Assembly (NCBI GenBank): GCA_001412365.1 | Contig: LKUE01000025.1 | Location: forward strand, 1-31,057 | Length of the DNA stretch: 31,057 nt | From: Desulfuromonas sp. SDB | Lineage (GTDB): Bacteria > SDB-A | Direction: 5' to 3' | Shown: in pieces, positions 18,446 through 31,057 of the stretch | Layout of the letters: each line of letters opens with the position of its first letter | Numbering within the stretch: position 1 is the first letter of the stretch | Notes under the pieces: generated by a model | Told to the model about the DNA's origin: nothing | Databases searched by the model: none | What the model saw: the letters and a program-made list of their open reading frames with translations, nothing else | Program-made: the position numbers and the translations under genes

Positions 18446-20998
18446 ATGCTTAATATAATCTTAGCAATTATTTCTATTTACCAGATCACTTTGCCCAATG
18501 GGCTGAGGGTTGCCCTGGAAGAAAATCACGCTTCCCCGGTAACTGCGGTATACATTTTTGTGGACGTGGGGGGGGCTTATGAGGGGGAATACACCGGTAG
18601 AGGATTAAGTCATTTTTGCGAACATGTGGTAGCAGGGGGAACCACCCAGTATCATTCTGAAGATGAATACAACCAGATGACTCAGATGTATGGGATTTAT
18701 TCCAATGCCTATACTGCCCATGAGAGAACCTGTTATCATAAAACCGGTCCCTCCGAGTACACTGAGCAGATGATCAGCATGGATATGGAGCAGGTTTTCA
18801 GTTGTGTATTTGACTCTTTTGAAGTAAACCGGGAGCACGGGGTTATCAGCCACGAAATTCTTACTTCGGAAACTCCAGAGAGTAAATCCTGGAGAGAAAT
18901 GCTGAATTTCATTGCCGGCAATCATCCCTTAAGTGTTCCCATTCTGGGTTACAAGGATGCCATGGCAGGGATAACCAGGGATATTGTGTACACTTTTTAC
19001 CGTCAGCATTATACTCCTGCCAATGCAGTTATGGTGGTAGTGGGAGATTTCAATACTGAACAGATTTTAGAATATATTACAAAAGAAGCGGAAAAATTTC
19101 CCGCCCAGCCCTATTCACCCGCAACCATGGATCCCCTGCCCAGTTATCTTTACTCCCGGGCGGACAGTTTTATCGGTGACATTGCTGAACCGGAAATAAA
19201 TTTGATATGGATTGCCGCTCAGGGCAATACTGAAGATGATTGTGCTTTGAACTTGCTTTCCGATTATCTTTCCCTGGGACATTCCTCTATACTGGAAAGA
19301 GTACTGGTCAGAGAGAAGGAATTAGCAGTTAGTGTATGGTGCTGGAATTGGGGTTTGAGGAGATCGCCGGGAATATTCACCATGGGAGCCACTGCTGATG
19401 ATCCGGCTAAACTTAATCAAGCCAAGCAGGAATTGCTAGCCCAGCTGGAATTAGTACTGCAGGGTAAAATTGATGAGCAGAGATTACAGCGGGTTAAACG
19501 CTTGATCAGATATGAGATGATTAAAGACCGGACTGTAGATCATCAGGCGGAGTATATTGGAAGCGGACTGCTTTATGCCAATGATCCTTATTATTACCCC
19601 GACCGCTACTTGGAACAGATAAATGAGGTGACCCCGCAGGAGATGATTGAAGTTGCCCGGAAATACCTGGATCCGGAAAAGGTGCAGGTTTTTTACAATA
19701 TCCCTGAAATTATGATTGAGGATCAACTGTCCCTAACCGAAGTTAATCCTGGCCTTATTCCGTTTGAAAAATATCAAAAGCCTGGTTATCCCGCAATTAT
19801 CTGTCAGAAAATTCCGGAATCCCAGTATGTGAATATTACCTTGGCCATAGGAGGTGGAGATAAACTTGATGCCTCCCGGTTGGAAGGTTTATCCCGGATG
19901 TTTTTGGAGCATATTATGAGAAAAACCACCCTGATGTCGGAAGATCAAATTTCCGAGTTAAAGGATGACTATGGAATTGAAACCAGGATTTCTTCAACTC
20001 CGGATATTTTATACTTCAACATTGGAGTTCCTTTAGAAAATTTTCACCAAGCTTTGAAATTATTGGGTAACTCTCTACAGAAAATTGAATTTTCTGAATA
20101 CACTGTGGAAGATATCCGAAGAGAATTAACTGAAGAAGTTAGTTCTCGTGACAAAAATCCCAATTACATACATATAAAATTCATTTATTCTAAATTTTTT
20201 CCAGAAAATACTTATGGAGACTTTATGAGTAACCAAACTCTGGATAATATTCAACCGGAAGACTTAAACGATCTTTACCGTATAGTAATGAATAATAGTA
20301 ATATAGTTATAGCAGTCTCAGGTGATATTGATCCTGATGAAATTCAGCTTATTTTGGAAAATGAATTTCCTAAATTTCCCGATGGGGAGAATTTATCCCG
20401 GTCTTCTTCATTGTTTTCAGATTACTTGAACTACAATCCGGTCACTGACAGTCAAATTTATGATTATCCCCAGACTTATGTGTCGGTTATGTTTCCTACT
20501 GGTAAAGAATACGGAGATGACGGTATTGCCTCACTTTATATTATTGATCAGCTTTTATCCGGCAGCGCATTTAGGCTTCATCAGGCTCTCCGGGGCAGAG
20601 AAGATCTGGTTTATTGGGGATGGGGATATCAAATGGCTTATGGAGCTACCGGAGTTTTTATTTTTAACTCCCAAACCAGTTTGAAAAACGAAGATAGAAT
20701 TAAACAGATTTATCAGGAAGAAATTGATAAACTGGTAACTGAGCTTATGACCGAAGAAGAATTAGCTAATGCGAAAACTTCAATATTATCTGGTTTTTCC
20801 ATGCATTTACAGCAACCTTCAGCAAGAGTGAGACAGGCGGCAAAGATGTATCTTTACAATTTGCCCTTGGATTATTTGGAAGGGCAGCTGAGTGAACAGA
20901 TAAATGCTTTAACTGCTCAAGATATTCAAAATGCTGCGGTGGAATTATTCGATCAGGGATCCTGGCTTATTTCTCGTCCGGAAACCAGTGATTTTTAA
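18446..20998 (+). CDS. M16 family zinc metallopeptidase, two-module, paralogue 1
   Basis: This 850-residue protein has a short hydrophobic N-terminus (MLNIILAIISIYQ) that may be an export signal, though without a basic n-region. The N-terminal M16 module starts at once (ITLPNGLRVALEE). The inverted zinc motif HxxEH is complete: His56, Glu59 and His60 in LSHFCEHVV, with the third ligand Glu137 in HGVISHEIL, 77 residues later as in pitrilysin. The second half is a degenerate M16 module (IGGGDKLDAS, YPQTYVSVMFP) without a metal motif, which normally closes the chamber. It probably degrades peptides in the periplasm. AGGAGG precedes the ATG by 5 bases. A strong terminator follows. A close paralogue lies at 24962. 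Confidence 0.9.
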   Translation: MLNIILAIISIYQITLPNGLRVALEENHASPVTAVYIFVDVGGAYEGEYTGRGLSHFCEHVVAGGTTQYHSEDEYNQMTQMYGIYSNAYTAHERTCYHKTGPSEYTEQMISMDMEQVFSCVFDSFEVNREHGVISHEILTSETPESKSWREMLNFIAGNHPLSVPILGYKDAMAGITRDIVYTFYRQHYTPANAVMVVVGDFNTEQILEYITKEAEKFPAQPYSPATMDPLPSYLYSRADSFIGDIAEPEINLIWIAAQGNTEDDCALNLLSDYLSLGHSSILERVLVREKELAVSVWCWNWGLRRSPGIFTMGATADDPAKLNQAKQELLAQLELVLQGKIDEQRLQRVKRLIRYEMIKDRTVDHQAEYIGSGLLYANDPYYYPDRYLEQINEVTPQEMIEVARKYLDPEKVQVFYNIPEIMIEDQLSLTEVNPGLIPFEKYQKPGYPAIICQKIPESQYVNITLAIGGGDKLDASRLEGLSRMFLEHIMRKTTLMSEDQISELKDDYGIETRISSTPDILYFNIGVPLENFHQALKLLGNSLQKIEFSEYTVEDIRRELTEEVSSRDKNPNYIHIKFIYSKFFPENTYGDFMSNQTLDNIQPEDLNDLYRIVMNNSNIVIAVSGDIDPDEIQLILENEFPKFPDGENLSRSSSLFSDYLNYNPVTDSQIYDYPQTYVSVMFPTGKEYGDDGIASLYIIDQLLSGSAFRLHQALRGREDLVYWGWGYQMAYGATGVFIFNSQTSLKNEDRIKQIYQEEIDKLVTELMTEEELANAKTSILSGFSMHLQQPSARVRQAAKMYLYNLPLDYLEGQLSEQINALTAQDIQNAAVELFDQGSWLISRPETSDF

Positions 20999-24961: not shown

Positions 24962-27484
24962 GTGTTTAATATATTATTGTTAGTAGCTGGTTTTATCTAT
25001 ACCACTCTGCCCAACGGGCTGAGAGTGGTGTTAAATGAAGATCATTCCACCCAATTGGCTACAGTCAGAATCTTTGTTGATATAGGTTCCATTTATGAAG
25101 GTGAGTACACTGTCTGCGGATTGAGTCATTTCTGTGAACATGTGGTCAGCGGTGGCAGCACTGATTACCGAACTGAGCAGGAATACAGCCGGATAAAAAG
25201 AAATCTGGGATTATTAACCAATGCATCTACTTCCTGGGAGAGAACCCGCTATTATCAGACTGGTCCATCTCAGTTCACTGATTCCATGGTGCTAATGCTG
25301 ATGGAGCAGGTCTTTTCCTGTCGTTTTGACAGTTTTGAAGTACACCGTGAACATGGAGTAATATCTCATGAAATCTTAACCAAGAAAACACCGGAGAGAA
25401 TGGTATGGGAGGAGGCGATGAGATATGGTTGCGTACACCATCCTTTGGGTATTCCCATTTTAGGTATGCAAAATGCCATGGAAAGTATCACCCGGGATCA
25501 GTTGTACGATTTTTACCTCAATCATTATTCCACTGCAAATGCAGTATTAGTTGCAGTTGGTGATTTTAATGAAGATAGTTTGTTGGCGTTCATTGTTGAT
25601 CAAAATGAAAAATTTCCGGAAAGACCTTTTATTCCCTCAGAAGTTAAACCTTTGGTGAAATACTTTTATCCACGGAGGGATAGTATTTATGTCACCACAG
25701 CTCAGTCAAAAATTTATCTGTTTTTCAACGGAGTAAGTGTGCCTTCCTCTGAAGATGCAGTCATGGAAGTGTTGAAATATTATCTGGTGGGAGGCAATTC
25801 AGGTTTGCTGGAATCAATTTTAAAGGATCAGCAGAATCTGGCAATCTCAGTGTCCGCTGCAAATTATTCATTGTATAAAACAGAAGGAATTTTTCTAATT
25901 ACCTGTTCTGCTGAAAATCCTTCCACCCTCAGAACAATAGAACAGGTGGTGTTAGCTGAAATAGAAAATATTTTCCGGGGCAGAATTGATGAGGAAAGGT
26001 TGGAAAAAGCTAAACAATTAATTGACTATGAATGGAGAAATAATGTAACCATTGCTGAAAAAGCTGAAAATTTAGGCAGGTCGGTTTTAACTGTGAATGA
26101 TCCTAATTATTTTCCATCAGTATTTTTAAATTTAGTTAAATCAGTCCAGGCAGAAGATTTAATTGATTTGGTTGAAAATTCAATGGACTATGAAAATTAC
26201 CATATTTTATATGCTATACCTTCAGAATTCAAAATTTCAGATGTGCAGATTAATGCATCTAATCAACTAAGCCAATTTAAACTGCTTAAAAACGATAAAT
26301 ACATTCCTGTTATTTTTGAGCAAAATCTCGGAGATGAATTTATTACTTTTTGTATTGCCATGGGAGGAGGAAAAGGAATTGATCCTGAAGATAAAGAAGG
26401 ATTGGGAGAAGTTTTATTAAATCTTGTAACCACCAGAAGCTTTTATTTAAATGAAATTGATTTCAAAGATAGTTTGGACGCTCTTGGAATTTCTCATAAT
26501 ATACATAATAATGAGAATTTACAAATAATAACCTATAAATTTCCCCGGGAAAATTTTCGATCTGCAATGCAGTTGATCTTATCGGGATATAGAAATAGGG
26601 GGTTTTCAGATTCTTCAATATATGAGATTAAAAATTTAATTGTAAATGACATAAACAGGTCTTTTACGGATCCAAATTTTTTACATTATAAATTTTTAGC
26701 TGAGAAATATTTCCCTCCGGGGACTTACAGCCGTTTTTCAACTCCTGCTTCCGTAAATAACATTAAATCAATGGATGTGGAAAATTACTTAACTGAAGTT
26801 TTTAACTCAAATAATATAGTATTTTCCTTTTCCGGAGATCTTGATTCAGTTGAAATTATAGACATAATTGATCAATATGCATTTGAACTTGATACCGGTA
26901 ATAATTATTATTTAACTCAACCAGTGGAACTAACCAGTTCTTCTGATGACAGCCAGTATTACAGTTATCCCCAGACTTTGATTTCTCTGGTTTATTTAAC
27001 CTGTCCATTTGGTCATAGTGATTATGCGGCTCTTCAGATAATTTCCAGATTGATGGCTTCTTCTGGTTTTCAGCTGCATACTGCCCTGAGGGGAGTTGAT
27101 GACTTGGTTTATTGGGGGTATGGCAATCAACGTAGTTACAGTGGTTTAGGAATATTTATGTTTACGGCTCAAACCAGTTTGGAAAACAAGCAGAGAGTTA
27201 AAGAAATTTTCTTGGAAGAAGTGGAAAAACTTAAGAATAATTTTCTTGATCAAGAAGAGCTACAGGCGGCAAAAAATACCCTGCTTTCCCGTTGGGCTAG
27301 ATATGAACAGGATCCCGAGTACAGATTGAGGAGAGTTTCCGAGTTATACCTGGCGGGTATGCCCCTGGATTACTATCAGCAGGATTTAATTGAGCAGTTA
27401 AATAACTTAACCCCTGAAGATATAAGAGAAACCGCTCGAAAGTACTTCACCACCGGCACCTTCTTCACCTCCCAACCAAGATAA
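24962..27484 (+). CDS. M16 family zinc metallopeptidase, paralogue 2
   Basis: The 840-residue protein starts at GTG 24962, with GGAGG at 24952-24956, 5 bases upstream. It aligns with the 18446 product almost residue for residue through the catalytic region: His56, Glu59 and His60 (GLSHFCEHVVSGG) and Glu137 (HGVISHEIL). The second half is again a non-catalytic M16 module (AMGGGKGIDPEDK, YPQTLISLVYL). The N-terminus (MFNILLLVAGFIYT) is a short hydrophobic segment, perhaps an export signal. It probably shares a transcript with the cyclase gene. Its TAA stop (27482-27484) touches the left inverted repeat of the transposon. A similar C-terminal length in the paralogue argues against truncation by the insertion. 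Confidence 0.9.
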   Translation: MFNILLLVAGFIYTTLPNGLRVVLNEDHSTQLATVRIFVDIGSIYEGEYTVCGLSHFCEHVVSGGSTDYRTEQEYSRIKRNLGLLTNASTSWERTRYYQTGPSQFTDSMVLMLMEQVFSCRFDSFEVHREHGVISHEILTKKTPERMVWEEAMRYGCVHHPLGIPILGMQNAMESITRDQLYDFYLNHYSTANAVLVAVGDFNEDSLLAFIVDQNEKFPERPFIPSEVKPLVKYFYPRRDSIYVTTAQSKIYLFFNGVSVPSSEDAVMEVLKYYLVGGNSGLLESILKDQQNLAISVSAANYSLYKTEGIFLITCSAENPSTLRTIEQVVLAEIENIFRGRIDEERLEKAKQLIDYEWRNNVTIAEKAENLGRSVLTVNDPNYFPSVFLNLVKSVQAEDLIDLVENSMDYENYHILYAIPSEFKISDVQINASNQLSQFKLLKNDKYIPVIFEQNLGDEFITFCIAMGGGKGIDPEDKEGLGEVLLNLVTTRSFYLNEIDFKDSLDALGISHNIHNNENLQIITYKFPRENFRSAMQLILSGYRNRGFSDSSIYEIKNLIVNDINRSFTDPNFLHYKFLAEKYFPPGTYSRFSTPASVNNIKSMDVENYLTEVFNSNNIVFSFSGDLDSVEIIDIIDQYAFELDTGNNYYLTQPVELTSSSDDSQYYSYPQTLISLVYLTCPFGHSDYAALQIISRLMASSGFQLHTALRGVDDLVYWGYGNQRSYSGLGIFMFTAQTSLENKQRVKEIFLEEVEKLKNNFLDQEELQAAKNTLLSRWARYEQDPEYRLRRVSELYLAGMPLDYYQQDLIEQLNNLTPEDIRETARKYFTTGTFFTSQPR

Positions 27485-27524
27485 GAATTGGGGACGGTGC
27501 AATACTTTGTGACATTTTTTACTA
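27485..27524 (+). repeat. Left terminal inverted repeat, 40 bp
   Basis: It begins GAATTGGGGACGGTGC and ends in a T-run and ACTA. It is the exact reverse complement of 28501-28540; pairing stops immediately outside and inside. Confidence 0.95.
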
Positions 27525-27555
27525 TATGCCTATTAAGGCTATTTTAATTTCAATA

Positions 27556-28446
27556 CTATTTATTATTTTTGTGCCGTTTGTAGATAGTTGACAAAGAAGA
27601 CAACTTTAAATTTTTAAATATATTAAATTTTAGAATTTCACTATATTTCAAGCCACTTTGATCTTTCAATCTGACTAATAATTCATTTCTAAGTTTTTTT
27701 CCTATCCTAGAATGAGAACTCAATTCAGAAATTTTTATGTCGAATTCCTTTTCAAATTCTTCAATTACTTTATCAGGGGTTTTAAATGAATAATCAATCA
27801 GTCTTCTTCTTTTACTTTCAGAGTTATATTTTCTTCTTTCAAATAAAAGTTGATTTACCTCTTTATAACTGATATCTCCTATAAATTTACCCATTCTGGT
27901 GGAAATCTCGGGTAGATTTGTTCCGACCATGCTATATATATAATGTTGAAACATTTCTTTATTTTCAAACATATCTTCAATCAAACTATTATCTAATAAG
28001 TTTGAATCTTTATTGAAATAAAAGTTGATACTTGACCATCTATAGTCATAAGGATTCTTAACAATATTAGCTCTTACCGGATTTAACATAACATAAGCAA
28101 TTACGGTTTTAAGATAGGAATCATCTTGAATCAACAAGGATTTAAATCTACCTTGAAATAAGTATCCTTTACTTTTCTCGAAATGACGGAAATACTGAGC
28201 ATAATGTGAATTAAGTTGCTTCATAAAATCAGATAACTTACCAGAAGAGTTTTCCAATACTAAATGATAGTGATTGTTCATAAGACAGAATGCAAAAATA
28301 CGAATTTTTAATTTTGTAGATTTTTCTTCGAGTAGTTTTAAAAAAGTAAATTTGTACATATCATTAGGAAAAATGATTTTTCCATCGATTCCTCTGCTGA
28401 TTACATGGTGATATGCGCCGGTATAGGTAAATCTAGCTCTTCTCAT
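27556..28446 (-). CDS. REP-associated tyrosine transposase (Y1, IS200/IS605-like)
   Basis: This 296-residue HUH-family nuclease carries the His-hydrophobic-His motif as His59-Tyr60-His61 (LMNNHYHLVLE). The nucleophile is Tyr118 (AYVMLNPVRA). Other signs are the N-terminal YTGAYHHVISRGIDG and GYLFQGRFKSLL. These are typical of RAYT transposases, which cut and join single strands at hairpins beside REP-like repeats. The C-terminal ~70 residues (KKLRNELLVRLKDQSGLKYSEI) resemble the DnaA-like helix-turn-helix tail of one RAYT group. There is no ribosome binding site before the ATG, which is common for such elements. The gene is intact, so the element may be active. Confidence 0.93.
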   Translation of the reverse strand: MRRARFTYTGAYHHVISRGIDGKIIFPNDMYKFTFLKLLEEKSTKLKIRIFAFCLMNNHYHLVLENSSGKLSDFMKQLNSHYAQYFRHFEKSKGYLFQGRFKSLLIQDDSYLKTVIAYVMLNPVRANIVKNPYDYRWSSINFYFNKDSNLLDNSLIEDMFENKEMFQHYIYSMVGTNLPEISTRMGKFIGDISYKEVNQLLFERRKYNSESKRRRLIDYSFKTPDKVIEEFEKEFDIKISELSSHSRIGKKLRNELLVRLKDQSGLKYSEILKFNIFKNLKLSSLSTIYKRHKNNK

Positions 28447-28500
28447 GTAAATAATTTTATCATTAATTAAATAAAATGTATATAATATATAGTAATAATT

Positions 28501-28540
28501 TAGTAAAAAATGTCACAAAGTATTGCACCGTCCCCAATTC
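28501..28540 (-). repeat. Right terminal inverted repeat, 40 bp
   Basis: It is an exact reverse complement of the left repeat and ends CGTCCCCAATTC on the plus strand, directly against the stop codon of the minus-strand gene at 28541-28543. Confidence 0.95.
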
Positions 28541-31057
28541 CTAAAATATGGGGAGTTTGAGGGAGTAGGAAGGGGAGGTGATGTAGTAAATGCCGGAGGA
28601 AGGTACACTTAAGCTAACTGCACCGTATCCTTGTAGTTGAATTTTTTCAATTTCCTGACCTGATATATTGAAGATTCTTATTTCAGTGGGAGTGTGGATA
28701 TTATATTCCAGCTCAAAACATAAATTACCTGTCAATCTGGCTGAAAAGTTTACATCACCTAGAGATATACTGATAACAGGTTCTTCAATAGAAGAGGGCA
28801 AATTAGTACTTTCATAATAAATCTCCCAATTACCGCTTGCATCTGAACAATATGCAGAGTGAATTAATGAGCCATTAGATATTGACCGGGGCATGGCGGA
28901 ATTACCTTGATTACCAGCGACTAAAAATGGAGAGGACCAACTGGAATTGTAGTACATTGATCCTGCCACAATCCAATTTCCACTTTCCTTCCTCCTCCAA
29001 ATTACCACAGGATTAGGGTTACTGACTGCAGATGGCTCCAGATCGAGCATAGAGGAAGTTGAAGGTATAATTTGGGGAGATTGCCAGGAGCCTGCAGAAT
29101 TGAATATTGTCTTAATCCCCTGCTGGCAATGATATGAACAGAACAAATAGTCTTCAGAAGTTCCGGCGGAGAGATGATAATTAAAACCTTGATCTTCAAT
29201 AAGCACAGGAGAAGTCCAGTAAGAGCCATTATAAGCCATGGAATAAATATTATTATCGGTTATGAAAATAAGATAAACCAGACTGTCCGGACTTACTTGA
29301 ACTGTAAAATCGCTAATTGAACTGTCCGCCCAGGTTACCGCAGACGGAGAAGACCAAGTGCCGTAAAGAGGCTTGTTGACCTGGTAAATTCTTTCCTGTC
29401 CCCCCTCTACTCCCCGGAAGAAACACCACATTGTTCCCTGAGAATCCAGTACCGGTTTAGGATATACTTCGTAGGGCAGCAGAGAGGTTAAAGCAAGTGG
29501 GGAGGACCAGCTAATCCCGTTATTTGATGAGCTGACCATTCCAATGTCATAACCATTGCCCCAGCGATATCCCTGCCAGAAACAGTAGATCATGCCGTTT
29601 TGATCTTTAATTACCTGGGGATAAAGATCCCAATATTCATCTCCGGAACCGGATATTTCAGCAGGAGTTGACCAGGAGGATCCATTGTAATAACTGGCGA
29701 AAATATCATTGCGGATATCCTGACAGCGTGACCAAACAACCAGGGGATACCCGTTGGACATTAAAGTTATAAAAGGCATTCCATCAGTGAAGGCATAATT
29801 AGTTATTTTAGCTGAATCAACATAAACGGTAAGAACATTCACCGGATCTGGAGGAATTTGATTCGGGAGATTGTCTTTACTCATCCCTGGTTTAAGGGTT
29901 GGATCGCCCAAATAGGTTAATCCGTAAAACCAGGATGGACTCCATTCTGCGTTGATGACCATCCATTCCTTGAATGCCCCTCCGAAGGTGGAGTCATTCC
30001 CCAGGGGAGTGTAAAATTCGGAAAAGTAGAGCATGGCTCCAGTTTTAGCTGATCCCACCACCCCCAAGCCGTAATCAGATCGGAAAATGTAGGCATTGCC
30101 CAGATTGTCTCTTTCCACATATCTGGCTCCGGAACAGGAAAATAAATTTAAAAAGTGAACGGGAGCGGTTAGAAAATAAAGTTCAAAATTGTAAAATGTA
30201 CCCCCCACATTCATAGGTCTGAAGGTATGACTCCAGGGAGAGGAATGTGCCATGATATGAACATATTCATATCCGTTTTGAAGTTTACTGACGTACTGGG
30301 TTTCAGTGGTGGAAGTGGAATTTTCCACAACTTCCACATTGCTACCGTAGATGGCGTTCAAACCAGGGTCTCCGGTGTAACTCCAGTCATCATCATTAAA
30401 CGCCAGGGCTTGGAAGGGAACAGATAAATTGCCAATTCGGTATTGATGATTTTTATTTAAATAGTTTTGGACCAGACTCGCTTCATCCCCGTTGGTGCAG
30501 TAGGTAGCGGTTAACCGTCCCAACCAGATATCTGCTTCTTCATCACCGGATCCATCGGAATGAGAATCAAAAATATCATCATTATTGGCATCTCCCCAGT
30601 AACCGTCTAAATCCATATAGTAATAATCAATAGGAAAAACCTCGTCATCAAGGGCATACCAGGGAACAGGTAATTCCCCAATTATTATCACTCCCACCGC
30701 TCCCTGGCTGTTCCACCGGGTATAAAGCAAATTTCTAATGTCCACACAGGTTCCACCGGAAACAGTGTCCAGGTAAACACTGTAACCCATGGAGGTGATA
30801 TCTGAAATAAATGTATCTAAACTTAGATGAGGATAGAGAAATCTATTGACTAAAATTACCACTTCTCCGGAAAGTTCACCATTCCCCTCTGCTGTTTCTG
30901 CGGATTGGTGGATAAAAGACTGGGGTGAATGGAATTGATGAAATTGGCGGTGATCGGTTAAGCTGCGGTTGAGAGGATCATAAAATTGTAATTGCCGGGT
31001 GGTTAGGTGGTCGGATTTTTCACCAATGGCTAAAGCAGCACAAAGCAACAATGAAAA
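28541..31057 (-). CDS. C25-like secreted protein with beta-propeller-like region and T9SS sorting domain, N-terminus cut by window edge
   Basis: The frame runs open through the right edge (838 residues visible). The first visible residues (FSLLLCAALAIG) are a signal-peptide core, so the true start lies just outside; TTG 31051 is not a good start. Residues ~60-395 resemble a C25/gingipain fold: VVILVNRF, VGVIIIGELPVPW, possible catalytic His271 (HIMAHSSPWSH) and Cys308 (LNLFSCSGARYVE), then TYLGDPTLKPG. The usual HG is HS here, so activity is less certain. About 400-755 is a repetitive beta region with recurring Ser-Trp-Ser (W-S-x-P) motifs, like a BNR/sialidase-type propeller. The last ~80 residues are a T9SS sorting domain (IRIFNISGQEIEK, then PSSGIYYI). 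The TAG stop abuts the transposon. Confidence 0.82.
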   Translation of the reverse strand, partial: FSLLLCAALAIGEKSDHLTTRQLQFYDPLNRSLTDHRQFHQFHSPQSFIHQSAETAEGNGELSGEVVILVNRFLYPHLSLDTFISDITSMGYSVYLDTVSGGTCVDIRNLLYTRWNSQGAVGVIIIGELPVPWYALDDEVFPIDYYYMDLDGYWGDANNDDIFDSHSDGSGDEEADIWLGRLTATYCTNGDEASLVQNYLNKNHQYRIGNLSVPFQALAFNDDDWSYTGDPGLNAIYGSNVEVVENSTSTTETQYVSKLQNGYEYVHIMAHSSPWSHTFRPMNVGGTFYNFELYFLTAPVHFLNLFSCSGARYVERDNLGNAYIFRSDYGLGVVGSAKTGAMLYFSEFYTPLGNDSTFGGAFKEWMVINAEWSPSWFYGLTYLGDPTLKPGMSKDNLPNQIPPDPVNVLTVYVDSAKITNYAFTDGMPFITLMSNGYPLVVWSRCQDIRNDIFASYYNGSSWSTPAEISGSGDEYWDLYPQVIKDQNGMIYCFWQGYRWGNGYDIGMVSSSNNGISWSSPLALTSLLPYEVYPKPVLDSQGTMWCFFRGVEGGQERIYQVNKPLYGTWSSPSAVTWADSSISDFTVQVSPDSLVYLIFITDNNIYSMAYNGSYWTSPVLIEDQGFNYHLSAGTSEDYLFCSYHCQQGIKTIFNSAGSWQSPQIIPSTSSMLDLEPSAVSNPNPVVIWRRKESGNWIVAGSMYYNSSWSSPFLVAGNQGNSAMPRSISNGSLIHSAYCSDASGNWEIYYESTNLPSSIEEPVISISLGDVNFSARLTGNLCFELEYNIHTPTEIRIFNISGQEIEKIQLQGYGAVSLSVPSSGIYYITSPSYSLKLPIF

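Follow-up and report, generated by a model that had tools for sequence, protein, structure and literature searches.

A transposable element of 1,056 bp in Desulfuromonas sp. SDB fits without a gap between two convergent genes, touching the stop codon of each, and the ends of its repeat elsewhere in that genome gather at gene 3' ends far in excess of chance, suggesting that insertion probably takes place immediately 3' of a TAA-like target, the element's own sequence starting with G, and that selection filters the surviving insertions to gene ends. The window, by which we mean the whole stretch of 31,057 nucleotides that was analysed, makes up one of the 433 contigs of a metagenome-assembled genome. 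The element (27485-28540) was delimited by its pair of inverted repeats, by the transposase gene inside and by the recurrence of its ends in the genome. Its left terminal inverted repeat (TIR) is GAATTGGGGACGGTGCAATACTTTGTGACATTTTTTACTA (27485-27524, forward strand), and the outer 40 bases of the right TIR (28501-28540, reverse strand) are the same, so that the bases read inward from 27485 and from 28540 are identical for 40 positions and diverge at base 41-42; with the stop codon bases included, the inverted-repeat arms extend over 27482-27527 and 28498-28543 (46 nt, 96% complementary). The base preceding 27485 is the final A of the TAA stop (27482-27484, forward) of an M16 peptidase gene (ORF 24962-27484, 840 amino acids), and 28540 is followed directly by the first base, in complement, of the TAG stop (28541-28543, reverse) of a C25-peptidase-like gene (minus-strand ORF 28541-31051, 836 amino acids). 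Excision of 27485-28540 in silico joins TAA directly to CTA with zero spacing between the two stops. The junction bases and ORFs thus confirm what the initial annotation had described, namely perfect 40 bp repeats, an exact fit between two convergent stop codons and a stop-to-stop arrangement upon removal. Duplication of a TA target, as the simplest case at this locus, was rejected because removal of the element together with one TA would make the C25-like gene read across the end of the M16 gene.

The M16 gene (forward strand) was assigned from matches to Pfam M16 and M16_C and has homologues in three related genomes; a paralogue (18446-20998, 39% identity) also lies in the window, with a gene for a large cyclase/AAA/TPR protein between the two. 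The M16 product beside the element is 4 C-terminal residues shorter than this paralogue and two orthologues, which have a (D/E)xSx(Y/F) C-terminus in common, and judging from this comparison the shortfall would suit a stop supplied by the element better than a native one. The C25-like gene gives a weak, sub-threshold match to Pfam C25; homologues of it occur in the same genome and in three related ones, and its C-terminus falls within about 1 residue of theirs. The only relatives in our collection, at about 40% protein identity, are three genomes from a different genus of the same family, and neither for the window locus nor for any other copy in the genome was an element-free counterpart found among them; at the M16 orthologues in G001 and G002 no element-free junction could be recovered because the genes downstream of them differ.

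The gene inside the element encodes a Y1 (HUH) transposase of 296 amino acids (27556-28446, reverse strand; PF01797, E 1.8e-10, and alignment) and a genome search showed it to be the sole PF01797 gene of this genome. Its HYH motif (H59-Y60-H61) is intact and its Tyr118 lies within YVMLNPVRA, both being conserved in an alignment with relatives, of which 31 were collected, and we infer that transposition proceeds by single-strand chemistry. Against the NCBIfam model REP_Tyr_transpos (NF047646) it scored 65.1 bits, under the curated cut-off of 80. It carries a C-terminal extension of about 150 amino acids in which no Pfam HTH was matched at E up to 10, and no solved structure matched the transposase by sequence. 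The nearest relative (L064, from an Aminicenantes genome, 52% identity) belongs to an element with the same GGGGACGGTGC start and without abutment to stops.

About 13 ends of the repeat were found in the 3.1 Mb genome, as pairs at the window locus and in two MITE-sized copies (C66:2470-2583 and C383:4971-5077), and as single or contig-end copies on C153 (two), C119, C260, C375, C407 and C277; C277 holds the inner side only, leaving 12 ends with a known outer flank to be counted. The gap from stop codon to repeat (GAATT) is 0 nt at both window ends and C153:3908, 1 nt at C66 left and C375, 5 nt at C383 left and 18 nt at C407, while at C119, C153:8622, C383 right and C260 (here a short frame, perhaps not a real gene) an open frame enters the repeat and terminates within it or shortly past it, and C66 right has no gene pointing toward the repeat. 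The base preceding the repeat is A at 10 of the 12 ends, with a second A at 9/12, and the heads vary (TAA, TAG, AAA, ATA), a preceding TAA being missing at C153b, C407, C260 and C383 right. What these sites have in common is not a stop as such but an A-rich stretch, often TAA, that precedes the repeat. At C383 left, GATAA stands between the native stop and the repeat, an instance of TAA adjoining the repeat without serving as the gene's stop. The origin of the stops is mixed, some insertions keeping the native stop and others trimming the gene and supplying one, since the gene at C383 left is of full length, the M16 and C66 genes are shorter (the latter by 3-4 residues relative to its relatives) and in the C119 gene repeat-encoded residues have taken the place of the last 14-17. 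At C119:7940 the repeat codes for a tail of similar length on a 420 amino acid protein, and the opposite-strand neighbour there is a paralogue of the window's C25-like gene.

The single ends at C153:3908 and C153:8622 share about 113 bp at 90% identity, forming a longer non-autonomous unit with one recognisable end only. C260 (7389-7545) and C375 (1-157) both end inside the same repeat-led 157 bp stretch. Inward of the repeat this stretch contains the terminal part of an unrelated frame (EAEDFVVEKRGKNYRVKDFEKYLVEV, then a stop), pointing to another multi-copy element, unassembled, that shares these ends but carries a different gene. A search with the 67-nt end in 60 relatives, including the three family members, found no copies, and the pattern AATTGGGGACGGTNC gave only single, chance-like matches outside its own genome across 386 genomes.

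Positions exactly behind an in-frame stop make up 0.37% of intergenic positions (251 kb of genome) and those 0-2 nt behind one about 1%, so the repeat ends, with exact abutment at 3/12 (P ~1e-5) and a 0-2 nt gap at 5/12 (P ~6e-8), lie far above this background, the two window ends being included in both counts and not independent of each other. Random insertion followed by purifying selection alone, in a compact genome where exact abutment would be coincidental, might be read from the several copies lying 5-18 nt off or within gene ends, and from convergent spacing that is zero or negative in 3 of 22 gene pairs and hence not itself rare here; against the five ends at 0-2 nt, however, and the appearance of the same pattern in an unrelated genome, G386, we consider it unlikely. 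Three of the four ends preceded by TAA or TAG have a real stop there, compared to 5% of intergenic TAA/TAG sites, and a TAA target combined with avoidance of coding sequence may therefore fall short of a full explanation. The idea, raised from the window alone, of a specific target site at gene ends held in part: the copies are nonrandom, nearly all at gene 3' ends and several flush with stops, but there are also copies at a distance of 5 or 18 nt and some within the final codons, and a stop per se is not shared. The site is gene 3' ends and not strictly stop codons, because four ends lie in frames that run into the repeat.

The initial annotation had also offered that the element replaced a native terminator, its ends now terminating both transcripts. 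The MITE-sized C66 and C383 copies do fold into hairpins of 24-38 bp followed by T runs, but long hairpins were seen in those two copies only; the single ends of the window copy have no hairpin and fold no better than shuffles, its arms are 970 nt apart and no intrinsic terminator was found at 27300-28750. Since neither end folds, terminator replacement is unsupported at the window copy and, as an account of the pattern, very improbable.

A comparable arrangement was seen in the actinomycetote genome G386, where locus L094, drawn from the 31 transposase relatives, contains a shorter Y1 gene, distant from that of the window, flanked by TAAGAGGGTCSGACCCTC, and where both flanking genes (whose products we take to be ProRS-like and GH15-like proteins) terminate on the TAA of the repeat head. 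This Y1 element is an independent parallel to the window element. The outer heads of the RAYT repeat of G386 (GAGGGTCSGACCCTC) are mostly TAAG; it has 20 hairpin copies, with TAAG at 13 ends, 6 of which have their TAA as the exact stop of a gene (P 0.004 when tested on a more cautious 6/15). TAA also abuts the repeat without being a gene stop in G386 (TAGCTAAG, TGATAAG and TAGCTCTCATAAG) and, taken with C383 left, this points to sequence and not translation as the target. In the related genome G389 the ProRS and GH15-like genes adjoin without an element, their stops overlapping in TTAATC. The ProRS stop position is the same in G386 and at this element-free locus, while the GH15-like protein beside the element is 5 residues shorter than in G389 and has its stop at the element's TAA, with some 11-14 bases missing there; this side shows that the element can supply a stop as well. 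Beside another copy of the repeat the product of the adjacent gene, presumably Icd, has the same last residue as in G388, where no repeat lies at that place, and ends one residue earlier than in the other relative, and the end of GatB beside the repeat is within one residue of its relatives. As element-free relatives that keep the TAA have C or T next to it and element copies have G, the TAA at the G386 sites would most likely belong to the host and the G to the element.

These comparisons also bear on the main rival reading, that the repeat heads TAAG/TAGG themselves carry the stops, as the GTAG heads of REPs do, so that genes are slightly truncated with no targeting of stops. The repeats do extend outward as TARG, there is precedent in GTAG REPs (PMC3733652), and the shortened M16, C66 and GH15 products agree with it; the native C-termini of Icd, GatB and ProRS in G386 and of the C383-left gene do not, nor does the variability of the heads in the window's own genome, and we regard this reading as rather doubtful. 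Insertion 3' of a target is proposed by analogy with the IS200/IS605 elements, whose left end is flanked by a conserved tetranucleotide that they recognise as their target (PMC6006769). On our preferred reading, insertion behind a TAA-like target, the element is a TIRtron, with its gene for a Y1 (HUH) single-strand transposase between long TIRs and with non-autonomous copies and single ends dispersed in the genome. It would most likely land immediately 3' of a short target rich in A, as a rule TAA, its own sequence beginning at the next G (GAATTGGGG). Survivors would then accumulate at gene 3' ends, because TAA doubles as a stop codon and insertion behind a stop spares the protein, and would do so best where two genes converge and an insertion damages no promoter. 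Where the insertion, or a small accompanying deletion, fell a few codons short, the gene would end at an adjoining TAA or TAG or at stops internal to the repeat. That different branches of Y1 transposases independently settled on a TAA target, with stops as harmless landing sites, making this a stop-codon-seeking transposon, we put forward as a tentative possibility.

The gathering of REP- and TIR-type repeats at gene 3' ends is usually credited to selection or to some function in RNA processing. If insertion behind TAA is correct, a simple target rule would explain it, and for transposases of unknown target the rule would make a prediction open to test. The G386 comparison adds an element-free locus with small gene-end changes around a Y1 element. 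Literature searches on the repeat sequence and on stop-codon insertion returned nothing beyond the REP/TIR papers.

Among known systems, the IS200/IS605 elements (IS608, ISDra2) have the Y1 HUH fold and insert 3' of a short target, the model used here, but they have subterminal hairpins and are without long TIRs, whereas the window element has long TIRs and its ends fold like shuffled sequence. GTAG REPs and their RAYTs are alike in having a related transposase and in repeats that lie behind genes or between convergent genes (within 20 bp of their 3' ends) and whose heads often supply the stop (PMC3733652), but the window repeat is a long TIR in few copies and not a GTAG hairpin; a GTAG head on an imperfect palindrome is absent, the window ends reading TAAG/TAGG AATTGGGG without forming hairpins. 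The remark in the initial annotation that long perfect repeats are unusual for Y1 (RAYT) elements was too strong, because RAYT-like genes with long TIRs are known as TIRtrons or TIRYT, with a GGGGWSAS motif (Di Nocera 2013, PMC3733652), most of them assigned to TnpA-REP subclass 2.1 (Quentin 2018, PMC6006769). That subclass has a C-terminal HTH or DnaA_C-like domain; the window transposase has its C-terminal extension, in which Pfam detected no HTH. The GGGG-containing motif near the start of the window TIR, GGGGACGG, agrees with GGGGWSAS, which is present in most but not all TIRtrons, at 7/8 positions, and the relatives L065 and L068 carry GGGGTCAG. Apart from that one base and the lack of a Pfam HTH match, the difference from TIRtrons is the exact abutment of stops on both sides, which is undescribed for them in these papers (PMC3733652, PMC6006769). 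With a RAYT-type Y1 transposase that has an HUH motif, a catalytic Tyr and a C-terminal extension, with 40 bp TIRs that flank the gene and are unrelated to GTAG REPs, and with a moderate TIR family of single and paired ends, the window element fits the TIRtron/TIRYT class.
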